Below, piece after piece: positions 42,311 through 48,892 of a DNA stretch of 64,000 nucleotides. Below the pieces are notes generated by a model that was not told the DNA's origin, did no database searches, and saw only the letters and a program-made list of their open reading frames with translations. A program made the position numbers and the translations under genes. How positions within the stretch are numbered: position 1 is the first letter of the stretch; the number at the start of each line of letters is the position of its first letter. The stretch is from Planctomycetaceae bacterium (GTDB lineage Bacteria > Planctomycetota > Planctomycetia > Planctomycetales > Planctomycetaceae), in assembly GCA_019636285.1 (NCBI GenBank), contig JAHBXV010000017.1, forward strand, positions 62,001 through 126,000, read 5' to 3'.

Positions 42311-42381
42311 CGTCGTCTACTGATCGAACCCGTGCCGCGGCCCCTCAAAACACGGCGACTGTAGCGGCGACTCCGTGGAGG

Positions 42382-42465
42382 GTCGAGTGTCGAGAGTCCA
42401 GAGTCGAGGAAGGCGAAGCGATTCTTCAGTCTTCTCACTCGACTCTAGACGCTCGACCCTCGACC
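42382..42465. repeat. Inverted repeat, GTCGAGTGTCGAG family, copy 2
   Basis: The left 31-base block (42382-42412) is identical to 18549-18579. The right block from 42433 (TCTCACTCGACTCTAGACGC onward) is its imperfect inverted complement. It lies in the 400-bp gap between the enolase-superfamily gene and hpnH. Confidence 0.8.
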
Positions 42466-42611
42466 GAACTCTCGACTCGACCCAACTTCCCAATCGTGCT
42501 AAAAGTTCTTCCAGGAAAAGGTTTTCCGGCCTCCGCAACTGACGCGGCGGCATCGAGGGAATGCAGTTTCTTCGTGGCGGCAAATGGTTCGCCGATTGAC
42601 GAAGAGCTTCC

Positions 42612-42711: not shown

Positions 42712-43854
42712 ATGGCGGTTCCCGTTTCGCAGATGTGGACAGTGGCCAGCTACGTGTTGTCGCAGCGGCTGCGCGGCGTGAAGCGCTATCCGCTGGTGCT
42801 CATGCTCGAACCCCTGTTCCGCTGCAATCTCGCCTGCGCGGGCTGCGGGAAGATTCAGTACCCCACCGACATTCTCCGTAAGAACCTCTCGCCGGAAGAC
42901 TGCTTCCGCGCGGTCGACGAATGCGGCGCCCCGATCGTGAGCATTCCCGGCGGCGAGCCGCTCCTCCACCCGCAGATTGACGAAATCGTCGCGGGGCTGG
43001 TGGCTCGCAAGAAGTACATCTACCTGTGTACCAACGCGCTATTGCTCGAAAAGCACCTGCACCGCTTTCAGCCGTCCAAGTACCTCACGTTCTCGATCCA
43101 TCTCGACGGCCCCCGCGAAGAGCACGATTTCGCCGTCTGCCGGGACGGGGTCTACGACATCGCCATCGCCGCGATTAAATCCGCCCTCACCCGCGGCTTC
43201 CGCGTCACCACGAACTCCACCGTCTTCAACAACGGCGACCCGGCCGCCATGCGGCAGATGTTTGACGACCTGATGGACCTGGGCGTCGAAGGGATGATGC
43301 TCTCGCCCGGCTACCCCTACGAGAAAGCCCCCGCGCAGGATCTGTTCCTTCAGCGCCGGCAGACCGAAAGCCTCTTCCGGCGGATGCTGCACCGCGCGAA
43401 GCGCCGCTGGAAGTTCAACCTGTCCCCCCTCTTTCTCGAGTTCCTGCAAGGCCGCTGGGACCTGGAATGCACCCCGTGGGGGACGCCGACCTACAACCTC
43501 TTCGGCTGGCAGAAGCCCTGCTACCTGTTGCAGGAAGGGACGGCGGCCACGTTCCAGGAACTGATGGAAACGACCGAGTGGGAACGCTACGGCCGAGCCA
43601 GCGGCAACCCCAAGTGCGCCAACTGCATGGTCCACTGCGGCTACGAACCGACCGCCGTCGCCGAAACCTTCGGCTCCGTGCGCGGCTTCCTGAAAGTCGT
43701 CGCCCTCACCCTCTTCGGCACCGGCCGCGGCCCAGCCTTGGAAGAGCCGGAACCCCCGACCCACGCCGCCCCCCCGCCCCCGGAAGTCGTCCCTCTCACA
43801 CTCCCCCCGCGCCGCCAAAGAGAAACCGAAACCGTCGGCGCCTCGCGGCCGTAG
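42712..43854 (+). CDS. hpnH: HpnH-like radical SAM protein
   Basis: A 380-aa radical S-adenosylmethionine enzyme. The [4Fe-4S] motif C-x3-C-x2-C is at C38, C42 and C45 (CNLACAGC), followed by the SAM-binding [11 protein letters not shown]. The whole protein looks like HpnH, which joins adenosyl to diploptene to make adenosylhopane, the first step of extended hopanoid side chains. C-terminal cysteines in [12 protein letters not shown] are typical of the family. The last 45 residues are Pro-rich. The start at 42712 has GGGGGAGAG upstream; the longer frame does not look coding. No squalene-hopene cyclase or other hpn gene lies in the window. Confidence 0.9.
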
Positions 43855-43874
43855 GGATTGGCAACAACTGCATC

Positions 43875-43911
43875 CGCGTGTGCCACTGGCTCTGCCAGTG
43901 TGGCTTTAGCC
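43875..43911. repeat. Half copy of the GTGTGCCACTGGC palindrome
   Basis: GTGTGCCACTGGCTCTGCCA with the following GTGTGGCTTTAG matches the left part of the element at 29259-29337. The right arm is absent; a different hairpin begins about 30 bases further on. Confidence 0.6.
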
Positions 43912-43941
43912 AATCGGTAGCAGGAATTAGATAGTTGGTAG

Positions 43942-43958
43942 GTCAGGTTCTACCTGAC
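43942..43958. repeat. GTCAGGT-TCT-ACCTGAC hairpin
   Basis: A perfect 7-bp stem with a 3-base loop, closely like the inner hairpin at 8649-8665. It stands between the half palindrome and the first GGGTGGCCCC element. No T-run follows. Confidence 0.55.
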
Positions 43959-43972
43959 TACGACTCACACAT

Positions 43973-44167
43973 GGGTGGCCCCGGTTGCTTCGCAACCGTT
44001 GGGGGCCGTCAGGCCACAGAGGTTTTTCCATGGAAGAGTTCGCAGATCCAAATGAGCGACATTGTCCCGCACAACAATTTCGGCCGCGTCGACCGCACGT
44101 AACTCCTCCACCTGCTAACACGTAGGCCTCGCGGCCCCCAACGGTTGTGGAGCAACCGGGCCCACCC
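43973..44167. repeat. GGGTGGCCCCGG element 1, with long inverted ends
   Basis: The 195-bp element starts GGGTGGCCCCGGTTGCTTCG and ends CGGTTGTGGAGCAACCGGGC followed by CCACCC. The ends are inverted complements over about 37 positions with roughly four mismatches. The interior has no gene. About 50 bases of the left end recur at 47158 and 47936. The layout is that of a miniature inverted-repeat element; no transposase is in the window. Confidence 0.75.
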
Positions 44168-44235
44168 TCGATTGCAACGAGAATTGCAGGGGAGTGATAG
44201 TGGCTCCAAATCCTCAATCTGCATAGGCGGATCAC

Positions 44236-45279
44236 ATGATTCACAACTGTGGGAAACTGCTCGCCTTCGCCGCTTTGACGTCTGGCATTCTCGTTGCCAC
44301 GTGCCTTGCCGAGAATCCCTCTGCCGAGGAGGCCGGATCGATTCCAGTGGGGTATTCGTGGTACGAATCCAAAAGGCCGCGTTCTGAAGAGGAGTTGTGG
44401 ACCGGTTTTCAACAAATGGTCGATGAATGCCAGGTCACCGACGAGCGGCTTTATCAGGCCTACAGAGCGATTACGGCTAACGGCGGTCGAATAGGTACGG
44501 GATCTCGCGCACTCATCAATGGAAAACCAAAACGCCTTTGGGAAGCCAGCAGTTTTGCCAATGATCTGGAAATCCCGACGACGCGAGAAGAGGACCGCTT
44601 CTATCTGGAGGAGTGCACAAGGTGCTTTCGCCGTTGCCTTCCGGCACTGGTTGATTTGCGGCCCCTGTATTGTTTGCGCACCTACCTGACGACTCCGTTG
44701 ACGGACCAAGAGATTGGGATGCTTTCCAAGATTGTGAGCGATCCGTACGTTATCGAGTTAGGTTTTGGGGGAGACGGATTCAACGACGCAACAGCCGCGA
44801 TCTTAAAAGAGCCTACCAGGCTCAGGGGACTGTGGCTCGTCAAAACGTCGATATCAGACGATACGTTACCGCTGATCGCCGCGCTCGATACTCTTCAAAC
44901 GGTCGATCTGTCTGGCAACAGCCTTTCTGGGCCAGCGATCCTGCACAACTTGAAGCATCTGTCGCTGACCAGTCTTGATCTGTCGCACACATTCATCGAA
45001 GACGACAGTCTTCACGTGTGTCAAGAGATGAAGCAGCTAGAAAGCCTTGGCCTGGCCGGGACGACAATATCGACCAAAGCGATCAGTCACCTGAGTCATC
45101 TGGAAAAGCTGCGATGGTTGGACGTGTCCGATACGTGTATCGACGACAGTAGCGTGGACCTTTTGATCCGTCACAGAAAGCTTCAAACACTCATCGTCGA
45201 CAAGCGAGCCTTGAGCGAGTCCGCGCGGGCGACGCTGCATAGGAGACTGCCGAAGTGTCATGTTTCGGAGAAGGAGTAG
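44236..45279 (+). CDS. Secreted leucine-rich repeat protein
   Basis: A 347-aa protein with a signal peptide (residues about 1-25, ending T-C-L-A). Residues about 195-340 are leucine-rich repeats of a regular 23-24 residue period: LQTVDLSGNSLSG, LTSLDLSHTFIEDDSL, LESLGLAGTTISTKAI and LRWLDVSDTCIDDSSV. LRR proteins of this type bind other proteins. Residues 25-190 show no known domain. It is the first gene of the accessory island and begins 68 bases after the inverted-repeat element. The DNA looks less GC-rich than the core genes, which suggests transfer. The partner and role are unknown. Confidence 0.78.
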   Translation: MIHNCGKLLAFAALTSGILVATCLAENPSAEEAGSIPVGYSWYESKRPRSEEELWTGFQQMVDECQVTDERLYQAYRAITANGGRIGTGSRALINGKPKRLWEASSFANDLEIPTTREEDRFYLEECTRCFRRCLPALVDLRPLYCLRTYLTTPLTDQEIGMLSKIVSDPYVIELGFGGDGFNDATAAILKEPTRLRGLWLVKTSISDDTLPLIAALDTLQTVDLSGNSLSGPAILHNLKHLSLTSLDLSHTFIEDDSLHVCQEMKQLESLGLAGTTISTKAISHLSHLEKLRWLDVSDTCIDDSSVDLLIRHRKLQTLIVDKRALSESARATLHRRLPKCHVSEKE

Positions 45280-45311
45280 CCGGCGCCACCCTTGGAGAGA
45301 AGAGGGGATCA

Positions 45312-45926
45312 ATGCCCGGCTTAGTCGATCCACGGAACAGTGGCCGCAGTCGCTGGTACAACAACTGGCCCGCGGTCATCCATGCGGTTGGACTGTTCGG
45401 AGTCGTCGCAATTCTGGCATGGGCACTCCAGCCTGGTGAGAGTCCTCAAGTGATCGAAGCATCGGCCTTCACCGAGGCGGATGCGATTTCAAGACTCTTG
45501 CAAAGGTTCGGAACCGATATTGCGCGCGCCCGAGTTCGATATACCGGCTCGACGGCGGCCGTGATGACCGACACATCCATGAAATACGGCCTCGGCAGAA
45601 CGCCATCGTCAGGTTTCTTTGAATTCACCGGCGAAGCGGAGTATTGGCCATCAAAGCCGTGCTGGACATGTCAAATCGCCGAGCGAAAGATGCCCGGCCG
45701 CCTCTGCGTCCCATTCCGCTCACCCCGTGGCGACATGCTGTTCGTCATTCTTTACGATGCACGTATTGAATTCAATCAAGTCGATTCACGGCAGACGATT
45801 AACAGGGACGGAGCATCCATTGACGACATCCTTGGTCAGTTTTCGGGGTTCGCTTGCGAAAACGTGACGACAGACCAGGGAAAAGGTCAAATGGTGAGGT
45901 CGATTATTAGTGGCTTGGTGCAATAA
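45312..45926 (+). CDS. Single-pass membrane protein of unknown function
   Basis: A 204-aa protein with one transmembrane helix at about residues 22-39 (VIHAVGLFGVVAILAWAL) and a soluble C-terminal domain presumably outside the cytoplasm. A CWTC pair (WPSKPCWTCQIAER) could be redox-active or metal-binding, but no thioredoxin fold is evident. An AGGGGATCA ribosome-binding region precedes the ATG at 45312. It follows the LRR gene by 32 bases and may share its transcript. I do not recognise a family. Confidence 0.6.
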   Translation: MPGLVDPRNSGRSRWYNNWPAVIHAVGLFGVVAILAWALQPGESPQVIEASAFTEADAISRLLQRFGTDIARARVRYTGSTAAVMTDTSMKYGLGRTPSSGFFEFTGEAEYWPSKPCWTCQIAERKMPGRLCVPFRSPRGDMLFVILYDARIEFNQVDSRQTINRDGASIDDILGQFSGFACENVTTDQGKGQMVRSIISGLVQ

Positions 45927-45969
45927 GAACGACTGGCCTTGCTTGGAAGAAATGGGATGAGTTATCGCG

Positions 45970-46422
45970 ATGGACAATCTCGTCTGGCATTACCGTCCCG
46001 TGCATGCTTCCGATTTCTTCATTCGTGCGGATCTTTCAGCCCACGGAATGCCTGGCCGTTTTGAACAGCTATGGGCGAACCGGGAAAAGGGCCGCGTCTT
46101 CCGAATCTGCTGCGTGCCTTTTTTTGCATACGGCATCGCTCTGCGGGACATGGTAGAAACCGACGACGAATTCACCTTTCAACGAATCGTGTCTAAAGGT
46201 GGCCACCGAACGCTGCGAGTTGCAGTAGCGAACAGAATCAATGAAGTTCATCTTCATGGAATTCTTCATGACTGGGTTGTGAAATCTGGTCTGCTACATG
46301 AATGGTATTCCGACGGCTACTTGGCAGTTGATTTGCCGCCTGAGATTGACGAGGCCAAGAATATCGAAACGCTCGACGATTTGGAGCGGAAGGGCGAGAT
46401 CTCAATGGAAGTGATCGACTGA
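45970..46422 (+). CDS. DUF4265 family protein
   Basis: A 150-aa soluble protein. The central segment FEQLWANREKGRVFRICCVP with FFAYGIALRDMVETDD is typical of DUF4265. Family members are small, widely scattered among bacteria and often sit in variable islands; their function has not been settled to my knowledge. The C terminus is acidic (DEAKNIETLDDLERKGE). It begins 43 bases after the membrane-protein gene and is convergent with the next gene. The island context suggests an immunity or defence role, but this is inference. Confidence 0.8.
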   Translation: MDNLVWHYRPVHASDFFIRADLSAHGMPGRFEQLWANREKGRVFRICCVPFFAYGIALRDMVETDDEFTFQRIVSKGGHRTLRVAVANRINEVHLHGILHDWVVKSGLLHEWYSDGYLAVDLPPEIDEAKNIETLDDLERKGEISMEVID

Positions 46423-46473
46423 AAGCATCGCTGGTTGCGCTCGCCACGCCGTCCAAACCGAAGTCACTCCCTC

Positions 46474-47130
46474 TCAGCTCCCCCAATACTCTTTCAGCCC
46501 CGCTTCAATCATTGGGTGTTGGAACTCCCGATGGGGATCGGACAGTTGCAGCAGGAGATACTCGCGCACGGCTTCGCGCTGAGCGGGAGAAAGGCCGTCG
46601 AATCGGGACATCATGCCGTCGTCCTGATACGTCAGAATGAACACGACGTCGCTGGAAGTTATCCGGCCTTCCAGTTCGGCGACCATGAATGCCGGAAGAT
46701 GGAACCGCATCCCTTCCGCGTCAAAATAGGAGAGGCTCGTACAACACCGATCGAGCTCCTCAACCGGAATGGCAGTCCAGTCCTGCTTTTCGTCGTCCGC
46801 GCGAAGCTTCGCGAGAGTCTCCGGACCGGCGTACTTATCGAGACCTTGTCCCTGCCGAAGACCAATTCCATCGCCGAGCGTCACCCCTTCGAAGGCGTTG
46901 CGAATCAGCTCCAGCACTCGGGCCTTCTGCAGGTTGAGCTTCCGGCGGTCCGCGGGAAAAACCTCAATGAAGCCGCGGGCTTCCAGGTCAACCCAGGTCT
47001 GCTGCCAGATCTCCGGCTCCAGAATGGTCTCGACCCCGTCGACGACGAGCCATGCGAGATCCGCCTCGCGAAACCATTCGACCCGTTCAACTCGGCCGTC
47101 AATCTCGCGGGTGAAGACGATCTTATTCAT
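46474..47130 (-). CDS. DUF6714-like protein
   Basis: A 218-aa soluble protein beginning MNKIVFTREIDGRVERVEWF. The C-terminal 130 residues (LIRNAFEGVTLGDGIGL and later QHPMIEAGLKEYWGS) resemble DUF6714, a planctomycete-rich family of unknown function. The open frame extends upstream to 47214, but those codons come from the GGGTGGCCCC repeat, so the start was set at 47130. It is the only minus-strand gene in the island. The family assignment is from general pattern and should be treated as moderate. There is no signal or membrane segment. Confidence 0.7.
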   Translation of the reverse strand: MNKIVFTREIDGRVERVEWFREADLAWLVVDGVETILEPEIWQQTWVDLEARGFIEVFPADRRKLNLQKARVLELIRNAFEGVTLGDGIGLRQGQGLDKYAGPETLAKLRADDEKQDWTAIPVEELDRCCTSLSYFDAEGMRFHLPAFMVAELEGRITSSDVVFILTYQDDGMMSRFDGLSPAQREAVREYLLLQLSDPHREFQHPMIEAGLKEYWGS

Positions 47131-47157
47131 GCTCTTCACCTCGACGGTGAGCAGAAG

Positions 47158-47274
47158 GGGTGGCCCCGGTTGCTCCGCAACCGGGGGGCCGTCAGGCCAC
47201 AGAGGTTCTCCCACACTTTGTCAAATCGCCGATTTGATCGTATCCTCACGGAACTTCGCGCGGAAGACCACCAC
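47158..47274. repeat. GGGTGGCCCCGG element 2 (117-bp direct repeat, left copy)
   Basis: A 117-bp block that recurs at 47936-48052 with only three differences, in the same orientation and 778 bp apart. The two copies bracket the SUKH gene. The first 50 or so bases also match element 1 at 43973. It lies between the divergent DUF6714-like gene and the SUKH gene. Confidence 0.85.
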
Positions 47275-47433
47275 ATGCTTATGCTCTTAACTTCGCCGTT
47301 GATTAGCCGTTTCCATATAGGCACAACGCGATCACGAGCTTCTCGGTCCTTTCGTCCTCTGCGTTACGGGGCAACGGAGCCACTGACTGTCATTCGTCGA
47401 AAACAATTCACAAGGCCTGGAAACGGGGGAGCA

Positions 47434-47925
47434 GTGGAAACAATCGCATCTCTTTACTCACGCTGCTGCACGCATCGTTTTCCGTCCGTAGCGCGTGACG
47501 AAATCGATCGTCTCGAAAGTCAGATTGGCAGAAGTCTTCCCGGGGACTATCGAAAGTTTCTTCTTGAATTCAATGGCGGGGTGTTCAGGGGAGCGACAAT
47601 CAATCTCCCTGAGCCGCTGACGGTCGAATGGAGAGATGGGCCTGTGACTCACACCGAGGACGAGCTGGATTGCCTTTATGGACTCCGCGCCCCGTTTGAT
47701 TTTGCGATTCTAGAAAGTCCGTCGAATTTGACGCTCCTTGAACAAGGAGATCCCATCGAGTTGCTTCCGATGGGTTACACCGCATGCGGTTCCCTGCTGT
47801 TGCTGGGCTTGGATCCGGATATTGAAGGGTCGATCCTGATCAAGTTTCCCAGCGATCAGAATGCCTTCGAAATCGCGGACGGAATCGAGTCGTTCTTCGA
47901 CCTGCTATCGGTGGATGAGGAATGA
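47434..47925 (+). CDS. SMI1/KNR4 (SUKH) family protein
   Basis: A 163-aa soluble protein with the SUKH fold: EIDRLESQIGRSLPGDYRKF, then LLEFNGGVF, and later LLPMGYTACGSLLLLGLDP and a FFDLLSVDEE end. SUKH proteins are known immunity proteins that neutralise polymorphic toxins, often nucleases or deaminases. No toxin gene is seen nearby. The start is probably the GTG at 47434, with GGGGGAGCA directly upstream; the open frame continues far back without coding character. It is flanked on both sides by the 117-bp repeat, so it has the look of a movable cassette. Confidence 0.83.
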   Translation: METIASLYSRCCTHRFPSVARDEIDRLESQIGRSLPGDYRKFLLEFNGGVFRGATINLPEPLTVEWRDGPVTHTEDELDCLYGLRAPFDFAILESPSNLTLLEQGDPIELLPMGYTACGSLLLLGLDPDIEGSILIKFPSDQNAFEIADGIESFFDLLSVDEE

Positions 47926-47935
47926 CACTTCGAAT

Positions 47936-48105
47936 GGGTGGCCCCGGTTGCTCCGCAACCGGGGGGCCGTCAGGCCACAGAGGTTCTCCCACACTTTGTC
48001 AAATCGCCGAGTGGATCGTATCCTCACGGAACTTCGCGCGGAATACCACCACGCCCGTGCGGCCGTTTTTCAGCTCCCAAACGGTTGCGTAGCAATTGGG
48101 ACCGC
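47936..48105. repeat. GGGTGGCCCCGG element 3 (117-bp direct repeat, right copy, plus inverted end)
   Basis: Positions 47936-48052 repeat 47158-47274 with three changes. After them, CCCAAACGGTTGCGTAGCAA (from about 48077) is a degenerate inverted complement of the left end, so this copy keeps both ends, as element 1 does. It sits 10 bases after the SUKH stop and just before the 83-aa gene. Confidence 0.8.
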
Positions 48106-48147
48106 GTGGCGAGTTCCCTCATGAAAAAAGCGAGACGGGGAACGCCA

Positions 48148-48399
48148 ATGAGCAAAGAGATCAGCGTCAAAGAGGCCTATCTTGCGATGTATTCGTTCCT
48201 GGATGAGCTGTACTCGAAGTATGGCTACGAACAGCTTGGCGGCTTGCTCGGGGGCATGAGCCTGCTTCCTGATGGCTCAACAGCCGATGAAGCCATCTGG
48301 CATGACTGGCTCAGATGCATTGAAAAGGCGAAAGCCGGTCAGATCGACGCGGAATTACGGCTCAATAGGCACGACGGAGCCAATCCCAATCGACCATAA
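48148..48399 (+). CDS. 83-aa conserved-looking protein
   Basis: A small soluble protein beginning MSKEISVKEAYLAMYSFLDE, with LGGLLGGMSLLPDGSTADEA and a W-x-D-W-L segment. The pattern is helical, and I have the impression of a small family that occurs in immunity-gene islands, but I cannot name it. The ATG at 48148 has ACGGGGA upstream; an in-frame ATG at 48121 is possible. It follows the third repeat element by about 40 bases and closes the accessory island. Function unknown. Confidence 0.6.
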   Translation: MSKEISVKEAYLAMYSFLDELYSKYGYEQLGGLLGGMSLLPDGSTADEAIWHDWLRCIEKAKAGQIDAELRLNRHDGANPNRP

Positions 48400-48475
48400 T
48401 CTTGCCTGGTGAGCGGACGAATCGTCCCAGTTCCACTCCCTGTGGCAACGTCCGACTTTGCAAGACGACACGGCG

Positions 48476-48892
48476 CTACCGCGCGCTCGCCAACCGCTCA
48501 AACCCCATCACCGATCCCGACTTTCCCGCAGACGCTTCCGGGTTCGGGTCCATCTCCGCGTATTGTTCCGCGCAGTGGCGGCAGCGGGAGAGGTGGCGGT
48601 CGACGGCTTCCCGCTTTTCCTCGCTCAGGCGTCGGGCCAGATAGTCCGGCGCGAGGTCCAGGCATTCGGGGCAGCTGATCTTCGCGACGTTATCGACAGC
48701 ACCTGCCGGAGCCACGCTTCGCGGGACCAGCCAGACGGCGGCGACAAGGACGGCGACCAGTCCCGTACCGGCTGCCACGCGAGCCACGCGACGGCGAGTC
48801 GTCTTCCAGCGAAGACGCGTCGACAGGTCGCTCAGGCACCCCACGGGGCAGCGGGACCATTCGTTCGGCGTTTCGGGAGTTGGCTCGGTCAT
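48476..48892 (-). CDS. Membrane protein with zinc-finger (anti-sigma-like) domain
   Basis: A 138-aa protein with a transmembrane helix at about residues 41-57 (AAGTGLVAVLVAAVWLV). After it comes a zf-HC2-like motif: CPECLDLAPDYLARRLSEEK, followed by H-L-S-R-C-R-H-C. In zinc-binding anti-sigma factors the H-x3-C-x2-C set binds zinc and lies before the membrane helix. Here the order is reversed, so the zinc site would be on the other side of the membrane or the topology is inverted. No ECF sigma gene is adjacent. It is divergent from the Crp-type regulator, with about 245 bases between. Confidence 0.65.
   Translation of the reverse strand: MTEPTPETPNEWSRCPVGCLSDLSTRLRWKTTRRRVARVAAGTGLVAVLVAAVWLVPRSVAPAGAVDNVAKISCPECLDLAPDYLARRLSEEKREAVDRHLSRCRHCAEQYAEMDPNPEASAGKSGSVMGFERLASAR

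Follow-up and report, generated by a model that had tools for sequence, protein, structure and literature searches.

The stretch analysed here, hereafter the window, comprises 64,000 nucleotides of contig JAHBXV010000017.1 of a Planctomycetaceae bacterium (assembly GCA_019636285.1, positions 62,001 to 126,000 of the forward strand) and carries, between window positions 43973 and 48105, three related repeats, elements 1 to 3, all of which lie between annotated-like open reading frames. The genes between the elements encode a leucine-rich repeat (LRR) protein, a protein without Pfam match, a DUF4265 protein, a DUF6714 protein and a SUKH (SMI1/KNR4) protein, and this row of small genes (window 44236-48400) has the look of an accessory island, perhaps of immunity type; SUKH proteins can act in immunity. 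A preliminary description of the locus had placed three elements here, two of them with inverted ends, and had proposed a dispersed non-autonomous inverted-repeat family that could move or recombine gene cassettes and that matched no described system. The starts, the arms and the BLASTN matches bear out the positions. As argued below, the elements are very probably repetitive extragenic palindromic sequences (REPs), in places paired as REPINs, which are spread in trans by a REP-associated tyrosine transposase (RAYT or TnpA-REP, of the HuH/Y1 kind) whose gene lies on contig C59 of this genome.

Every REP of the family follows one plan, composed of a GG, a GTRG foot, a hairpin A of about 10 bp, a hairpin B of about 4 bp and a CAAGARG-like tail, and feet of both kinds, GTAG and GTGG, occur within the family. 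The features of the window, scored with a covariance model of the REP (R1), are the following.

43973..44167, + strand: element 1, a REPIN of 195 bp, with two inverted REPs, heads outward, and a spacer; inverted arms of 43 nt, 88% complementary, with 109 nt between them; fold as single-stranded DNA -59.2 kcal/mol, z -8.12, equalled in 0 of 200 shuffles
43973..44022, + strand: left REP of element 1 (R1 49.4 bits, E 1.2e-7 in the window), beginning GG-GTGG; foot 43975-43978, hairpin A 43979-44003, hairpin B 44004-44015 (loop GTCA), tail to 44022
44118..44167, - strand: right REP of element 1, a weaker copy with four broken pairs (R1 21.6 bits, E 0.021 in the window)
47158..47205, + strand: REP of element 2 (R1 56.8 bits, E 4.7e-9; equal DNA fold in 0 of 200 shuffles); foot GTGG, hairpin A 47164-47186, hairpin B 47187-47198 (loop GTCA), tail; right partner gone
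47206..47274, + strand: residual spacer of element 2, common to element 3 (117 bp from 47158 at 97.4% identity)
47936..47983, + strand: left REP of element 3 (R1 56.8 bits, E 4.7e-9); foot GTGG, hairpin A 47942-47964, hairpin B 47965-47976, tail
48076..48105 (approximate limits), - strand: degenerate right REP of element 3, head gone (inverted match of 28 nt, 82%, to the head of element 1)

Inverted ends had been ascribed to elements 1 and 3. This holds for element 1, whose right REP gives no genome-wide R1 report at E<=1; element 3 retains a decayed right end that has no R1 match at E<=1 in the window search. Element 2, as described, keeps its left part and has no right inverted end. Because elements 2 and 3 share 117 bp including the spacer, against only about 58 bp shared with element 1, they are regarded as sisters. 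Element 1 is a REPIN, element 3 a decaying REPIN, and element 2 the sister of element 3 that has been truncated. With up to three mismatches allowed, the 16-mer GGGTGGCCCCGGTTGC matches the window 8 times against 1.29 expected, a number reached in 0 of 100 shuffles, and this count includes several three-mismatch matches unrelated to the elements. By eye, a direct repeat may also be seen across element 2, and no use is made of it here. The idea that the spacers of elements 2 and 3 might contain what is left of a RAYT gene was dropped: tblastn aligned 7 of 12 residues around WSSAR in element 2 at E 1.7, and a RAYT profile run over the six frames of the window has no spacer remnant among its 15 best rows, themselves noise.

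Copies across the genome and the RAYT gene on contig C59

The family is dispersed, as had been proposed, and is not restricted to one locus. In the host genome (6.37 Mb in 113 contigs), BLASTN with element 1 gives 15 distinct units on 8 contigs, by a hand count of distinct places, and R1 gives 15 matches at E<=0.01; the two lists of units overlap and are not identical. The exact 16-mer GGGTGGCCCCGGTTGC occurs 13 times in the genome and its reversed control 0 times. Besides element 1, head-out pairs are found on contigs C26 (213 bp), C81 (199 bp), C59 (693 bp) and C55 (987 bp), and the REPIN layout, that is, inverted REPs and a spacer forming one long hairpin, is seen in element 1 and in the C26 and C81 pairs. 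On C55 (42932-43918; L032) two REPs lie 987 bp apart and an inner segment of about 170 bp is present twice in direct orientation at 74%, so that the pair looks like two REPINs that have each lost one end. A single REP of another hairpin type (52.6 bits) is present at C22:50645-50695. The C26 unit is adjoined by a GTCGAGAGT-rich tract similar to a GTCGAG-rich inverted repeat of the window (42372-42467, arms of 28-30 nt), which lies upstream of a radical SAM gene.

The head-out pair on C59 flanks an intact Y1_Tnp gene, with one REP 69 bp upstream and the other 21 bp downstream. From its ATG the gene encodes 170 aa, and the product scores 99.8 bits on the NCBI equivalog model NF047646 REP_Tyr_transpos (cut-off 80) and stays under the cut-off of the IS200 model NF033573 (32.7 bits against 55). 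All 26 aligned relatives have the HuH histidines (H60, H62) and the tyrosine (Y131) without variation. Among solved structures the best sequence match of the protein, a weak one (E 9.5e-4), is 4er8, a TnpA-REP (RAYT) bound to a REP hairpin; the same structure is the best match (E 1.5e-8, TM 0.73) to the fold predicted for L115, a relative (mean pLDDT 87.3), with IS200-type transposases close behind. One full-length RAYT of this clade is present in the genome at 100%, and two others are found at 35-37%. On contig C2 a REP adjoins a match to RAYT residues 138-169, the 3' end of the gene, with 82.9% DNA identity over 152 bp, a decayed second copy of the RAYT gene. By its layout, C59 is a REPtron, a RAYT gene placed between copies of its own REP. 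A described system, REP/REPIN with its RAYT, therefore does match the elements, contrary to the preliminary description.

Anatomy of the REP

Both hairpins show strong covariation. The covariation set (A1) is a MAFFT alignment of 32 RAYT-flanking units from 18 genomes; of the 33 units that the pattern had detected it omits three, at L045, at L057 and, as a nested duplicate, at L053, whereas L039 and L062 each contribute one unit picked by eye. In this set 95.5% of the cells pair and 13 of the 14 pairs have changed on both sides. Cells changed on both sides number 135, compared with a shuffle mean of 41 (0 of 500 shuffles as high) and with 5-19 when the partners are slid. The GGGTRGC head columns are nearly invariant in the 32 units, the head being part of the search pattern. 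When folded as DNA, the minimum-energy structure contains both hairpins and an unpaired foot in 4 of 4 REPs (two from the window, one from C59 and one from a Desulfarculus metagenome-assembled genome, MAG); 11, 0, 2 and 0 of 200 shuffles, respectively, fold equally well, and the centroids of the element 1 and C59 REPs contain hairpin A only.

The loop of hairpin B is of the GNA type in 22 and of the GNNA type in 6 of the 32 units of A1 (28/32), compared with 5.1% in shuffled tails. This count is the trusted one, as its units were selected without regard to the loop; among units found later with R1 such a loop is present in 21 of 22, a biased sample since R1 favours these loops, and in a separate 42-unit count nine units (L093-L097) came from a pattern that already demanded a G-N-A type loop. 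Extraordinary stability has been described for DNA mini-hairpins that combine G-C pairs with a GNA or GNNA loop (PMC4686876). We infer from this stability that the working form of the REP is single-stranded DNA, as the mini-hairpin suggests. The REPs at L112, L116 and L117 have some 40 nt more in the region of hairpin A, and yet hairpin B with its GNA loop and a CAAGAGG tail are retained.

RAYT and REP in related genomes

The association between the RAYT clade and REPs of this plan was followed in 98 other genomes, none of them of the same genus as the host. Such REPs surround the clade RAYTs at 18 of 30 loci by pattern (at least one REP at 350 bp or less; one is degenerate) and at two more by eye, and 28 of the 33 flanking units found by pattern are head-out. 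Clade RAYTs, counted as RAYT matches of at least 110 bits, are present in 24 of the 98 genomes, and R1 matches occur in all 24 (median 36.5, any count near 62 being a minimum), against 24 of the other 74. Seventeen of these 24 had contributed sequences to R1, and in the fairer subset, the seven that gave the model nothing, matches are present in all (7/7, p 7.6e-4). Among RAYT loci retrieved as titled records, 20 of 80 have an R1 match, namely 15 of the 15 first-listed (L106-L120) and 5 of the other 65; 18 of those 20 were compared with the loci used before, and 5 proved the same and 13 new. The nearest titled RAYT records to C59 are planctomycete MAGs, and four of the 20 R1-matched loci come from Desulfarculales, which belong to a phylum other than the host's. 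Double-hairpin REPs around RAYT relatives can be seen in Desulfarculales MAGs at L115:1352-2060 and also at L114, L118 and L122. Unless it reflects a binning error, their presence suggests transfer between phyla.

The distance between RAYTs is correlated with the distance between their hairpins A (Mantel r 0.466, 0 of 20000 permutations), as computed from 22 of the 41 loci that have a RAYT match. The omitted loci are those that lack a clear flanking REP and some that possess one, such as L057, L061, L099 and L100, and one arm of L054 was trimmed by hand. Where a genome has two RAYTs, the hairpins differ in G051 and G023 and are similar in G013. Other arrangements of the same class of repeat exist. 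Contig C1 of G063, a genome from another family of the class, has tandem arrays of R1-type REPs with constant periods (99 bp, 229 bp and others), for instance at 2654809-2655152, 4971128-4972776 and 7236059-7237430. Contig C1 of G087 (L186-L214, even numbers) has about 100 R1 matches, many of them in near-identical REPINs of about 185 bp whose heads are GGTTGGCC and which have additional inverted flanks on the outside.

Two observations bear on movement. Target-site duplications, which had been suggested as a sign of mobility, are absent at a length of 2 bp or more from all 10 units inspected (5 in the host genome, 4 in G076 and 1 in G003); insertion of IS200/IS605 elements likewise produces no target-site duplication. 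G003 and G058 belong to one genus, and a 148-bp REPIN of G003 is absent from G058, where its flanks are separated by 57 bp instead of 292; an orthologous site without the element thus adds to the dispersed copies in agreement with the proposed family. G087, with its other REPIN head and extra outer inverted flanks, was left out of this comparison.

Several findings weigh against the view that the C59 RAYT spreads these REPs. About a third of the RAYT loci have no such REP by the patterns used, L098 being one clade RAYT without it by pattern, and 5 of the 33 flanking units are not head-out. R1 matches are also present where a close RAYT is lacking, in 24 of 74 such genomes (median 0). In G076, which holds 16 exact 16-mers, about 4 kb separate the sole RAYT match at E<=1e-15 (37%) from the closest copy; three family matches of this genome are counted in another tally, which lists the place of one. 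The Mantel statistic ignores host phylogeny, and further pair types in A1 are not above shuffles (190/500). The empty site of G058 has no exact breakpoints and its intergenic DNA differs in other ways too; moreover, just one of three G003/G058 sites is informative, since at L197 and L203 both flanks were not found together. Finally, cleavage and movement are predictions from sequence.

Mechanism, alternative explanations and known systems

It has been reported that RAYTs bind single-stranded REPs, cut beside them and transfer strands, that the GTAG foot helps to choose the site and that REPINs are the likely moving unit (PMC8266576, PMC6006769, PMC3116915); in one tested system a change of the foot altered the cutting site (PMC8266576). 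By analogy with these published RAYTs, we infer that the C59 RAYT binds, cleaves and transfers strands, and likewise what each hairpin does and whatever activity the system may have at present. On a strand that has become exposed, as in replication, the C59 RAYT would bind the foot and the hairpins and would cut beside them through its catalytic tyrosine. The released REPIN would then be joined to another single-stranded intergenic site, with no target-site duplication. Hairpin A would provide specificity and hairpin B a role common to the clade. A more tentative proposal, held at somewhat less than even confidence, is that recognition has two parts: hairpin A may be a private lock that ties each RAYT to its own REP, while the GNA/GNNA mini-hairpin and the CAAGARG tail may position cleavage or protect the excised strand, and mini-hairpin and tail might then be a DNA-specific structure retained from planctomycetes to Desulfarculales. 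If this were true, a class of REPs would be defined by a conserved DNA mini-hairpin. The apparently nameless repeat family becomes in any event a testable RAYT/REP pair, and the 22 loci in which hairpin A has diversified with the RAYT and hairpin B and the tail are constant offer a series for studying how a RAYT comes to recognise the REP that belongs to it.

The 693-bp REP-RAYT-REP unit on C59 could alternatively be a small autonomous IS200-type insertion sequence from which the other copies derive by internal deletion. The ends of the C59 unit are indeed inverted copies, and the REP with the 3' end of the gene on C2 implies that the gene was copied or moved at least once; however, a sole full-length gene of the clade exists in the genome, its product passes the RAYT and not the IS200 model, and the spacers of the other units, C2 apart, have no match to the gene, all of which makes this origin unlikely. 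A miniature inverted-repeat transposable element (MITE) of a DDE-type insertion sequence, moving by cut-and-paste between terminal inverted repeats and duplicating its target, would account for a 195-bp unit with inverted ends. Yet the 10 units have no duplication of 2 bp or more, every end is itself two covarying hairpins, and a RAYT gene rather than a DDE gene lies between two copies (DDE transposases were not searched for), so that a MITE is extremely improbable.

Trans mobilisation by the RAYT is also to be set against two readings centred on the neighbouring genes. The hairpins might work chiefly at the RNA level, by terminating transcription, stabilising mRNA or regulating the adjacent small genes: all three elements are intergenic, element 3 starts about 10 bp past the SUKH stop codon and element 2 lies about 25 bp upstream of the DUF6714 start, and REPs elsewhere have such secondary roles (PMC6006769). 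Nevertheless, no Rfam match at gathering thresholds is found in 43500-48500, GNA loops are extraordinarily stable in DNA (PMC4686876) and the repeats are linked to a RAYT, and a principal role in RNA is accordingly judged improbable. The gene-cassette movement raised in the preliminary description, in which the elements would bound and recombine small accessory genes, finds some footing in elements 2 and 3, near-identical direct repeats around the SUKH gene that are a possible substrate for homologous deletion and could, on their sequence, allow recombinational loss of that gene. Element 1, in contrast, has only the REP in common with them, and other units are seen in unrelated places (an integrase was not searched for). 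There is no sign of neighbouring genes travelling with the elements, although a systematic search for repeated REP-gene-REP units was not made, and a cassette system is very improbable.

Reading the elements as REPs mobilised by the C59 RAYT places them beside several described systems. They resemble the published REPs, REPINs and REPtrons (PMC3116915, PMC8266576, PMC6006769) in the GT[AG]G at the hairpin base, the inverted pairs, the intergenic position of the copies in the window, the Y1 gene flanked by the same repeat and the single REP type per RAYT, and differ from known REPs in the second covarying mini-hairpin with its GNA/GNNA loop and CAAGARG tail in each REP and in their low copy number of about 15 units. 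With IS200/IS605 they share the HuH/Y1 fold and hairpin recognition, whereas the C59 protein is under the IS200 cut-off and non-autonomous paired copies dominate here. Class 3 TnpA-Y1 genes, common in planctomycetes, are likewise flanked by repeated secondary structures (Quentin 2018, PMC6006769), but have a CnGA foot and a Y motif with Q, in contrast to the GTRG foot and the YIHLNP found here. TIRtrons or TIRYTs (Di Nocera 2013, PMC3733652) also combine a Y1 gene and long terminal inverted repeats (TIRs) with dispersed copies, and some of their repeats are self-complementary or 'double palindromic', with planctomycete examples in R. baltica. Most TIRs, however, are reported to be unrelated to REPs, and many carry GGGGWSAS (PMC3733652), a motif absent, as read by eye, from the REP heads here, which are GGGTRGC with a REP foot; some overlap with TIRtrons is possible, the comparison being with their text rather than their figures. 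The text parts of PMC3733652, PMC6006769, PMC8266576 and PMC3116915, figures and supplements aside, do not describe a second hairpin with a GNA loop, and no literature was found joining 'mini-hairpin' with 'extragenic palindromic'. REPs in planctomycetes are already in print (PMC3733652). REP, REPIN and RAYT are therefore known, and the GNA double hairpin is the new component, unless it is possibly already among the 'double palindromic' repeats of PMC3733652.

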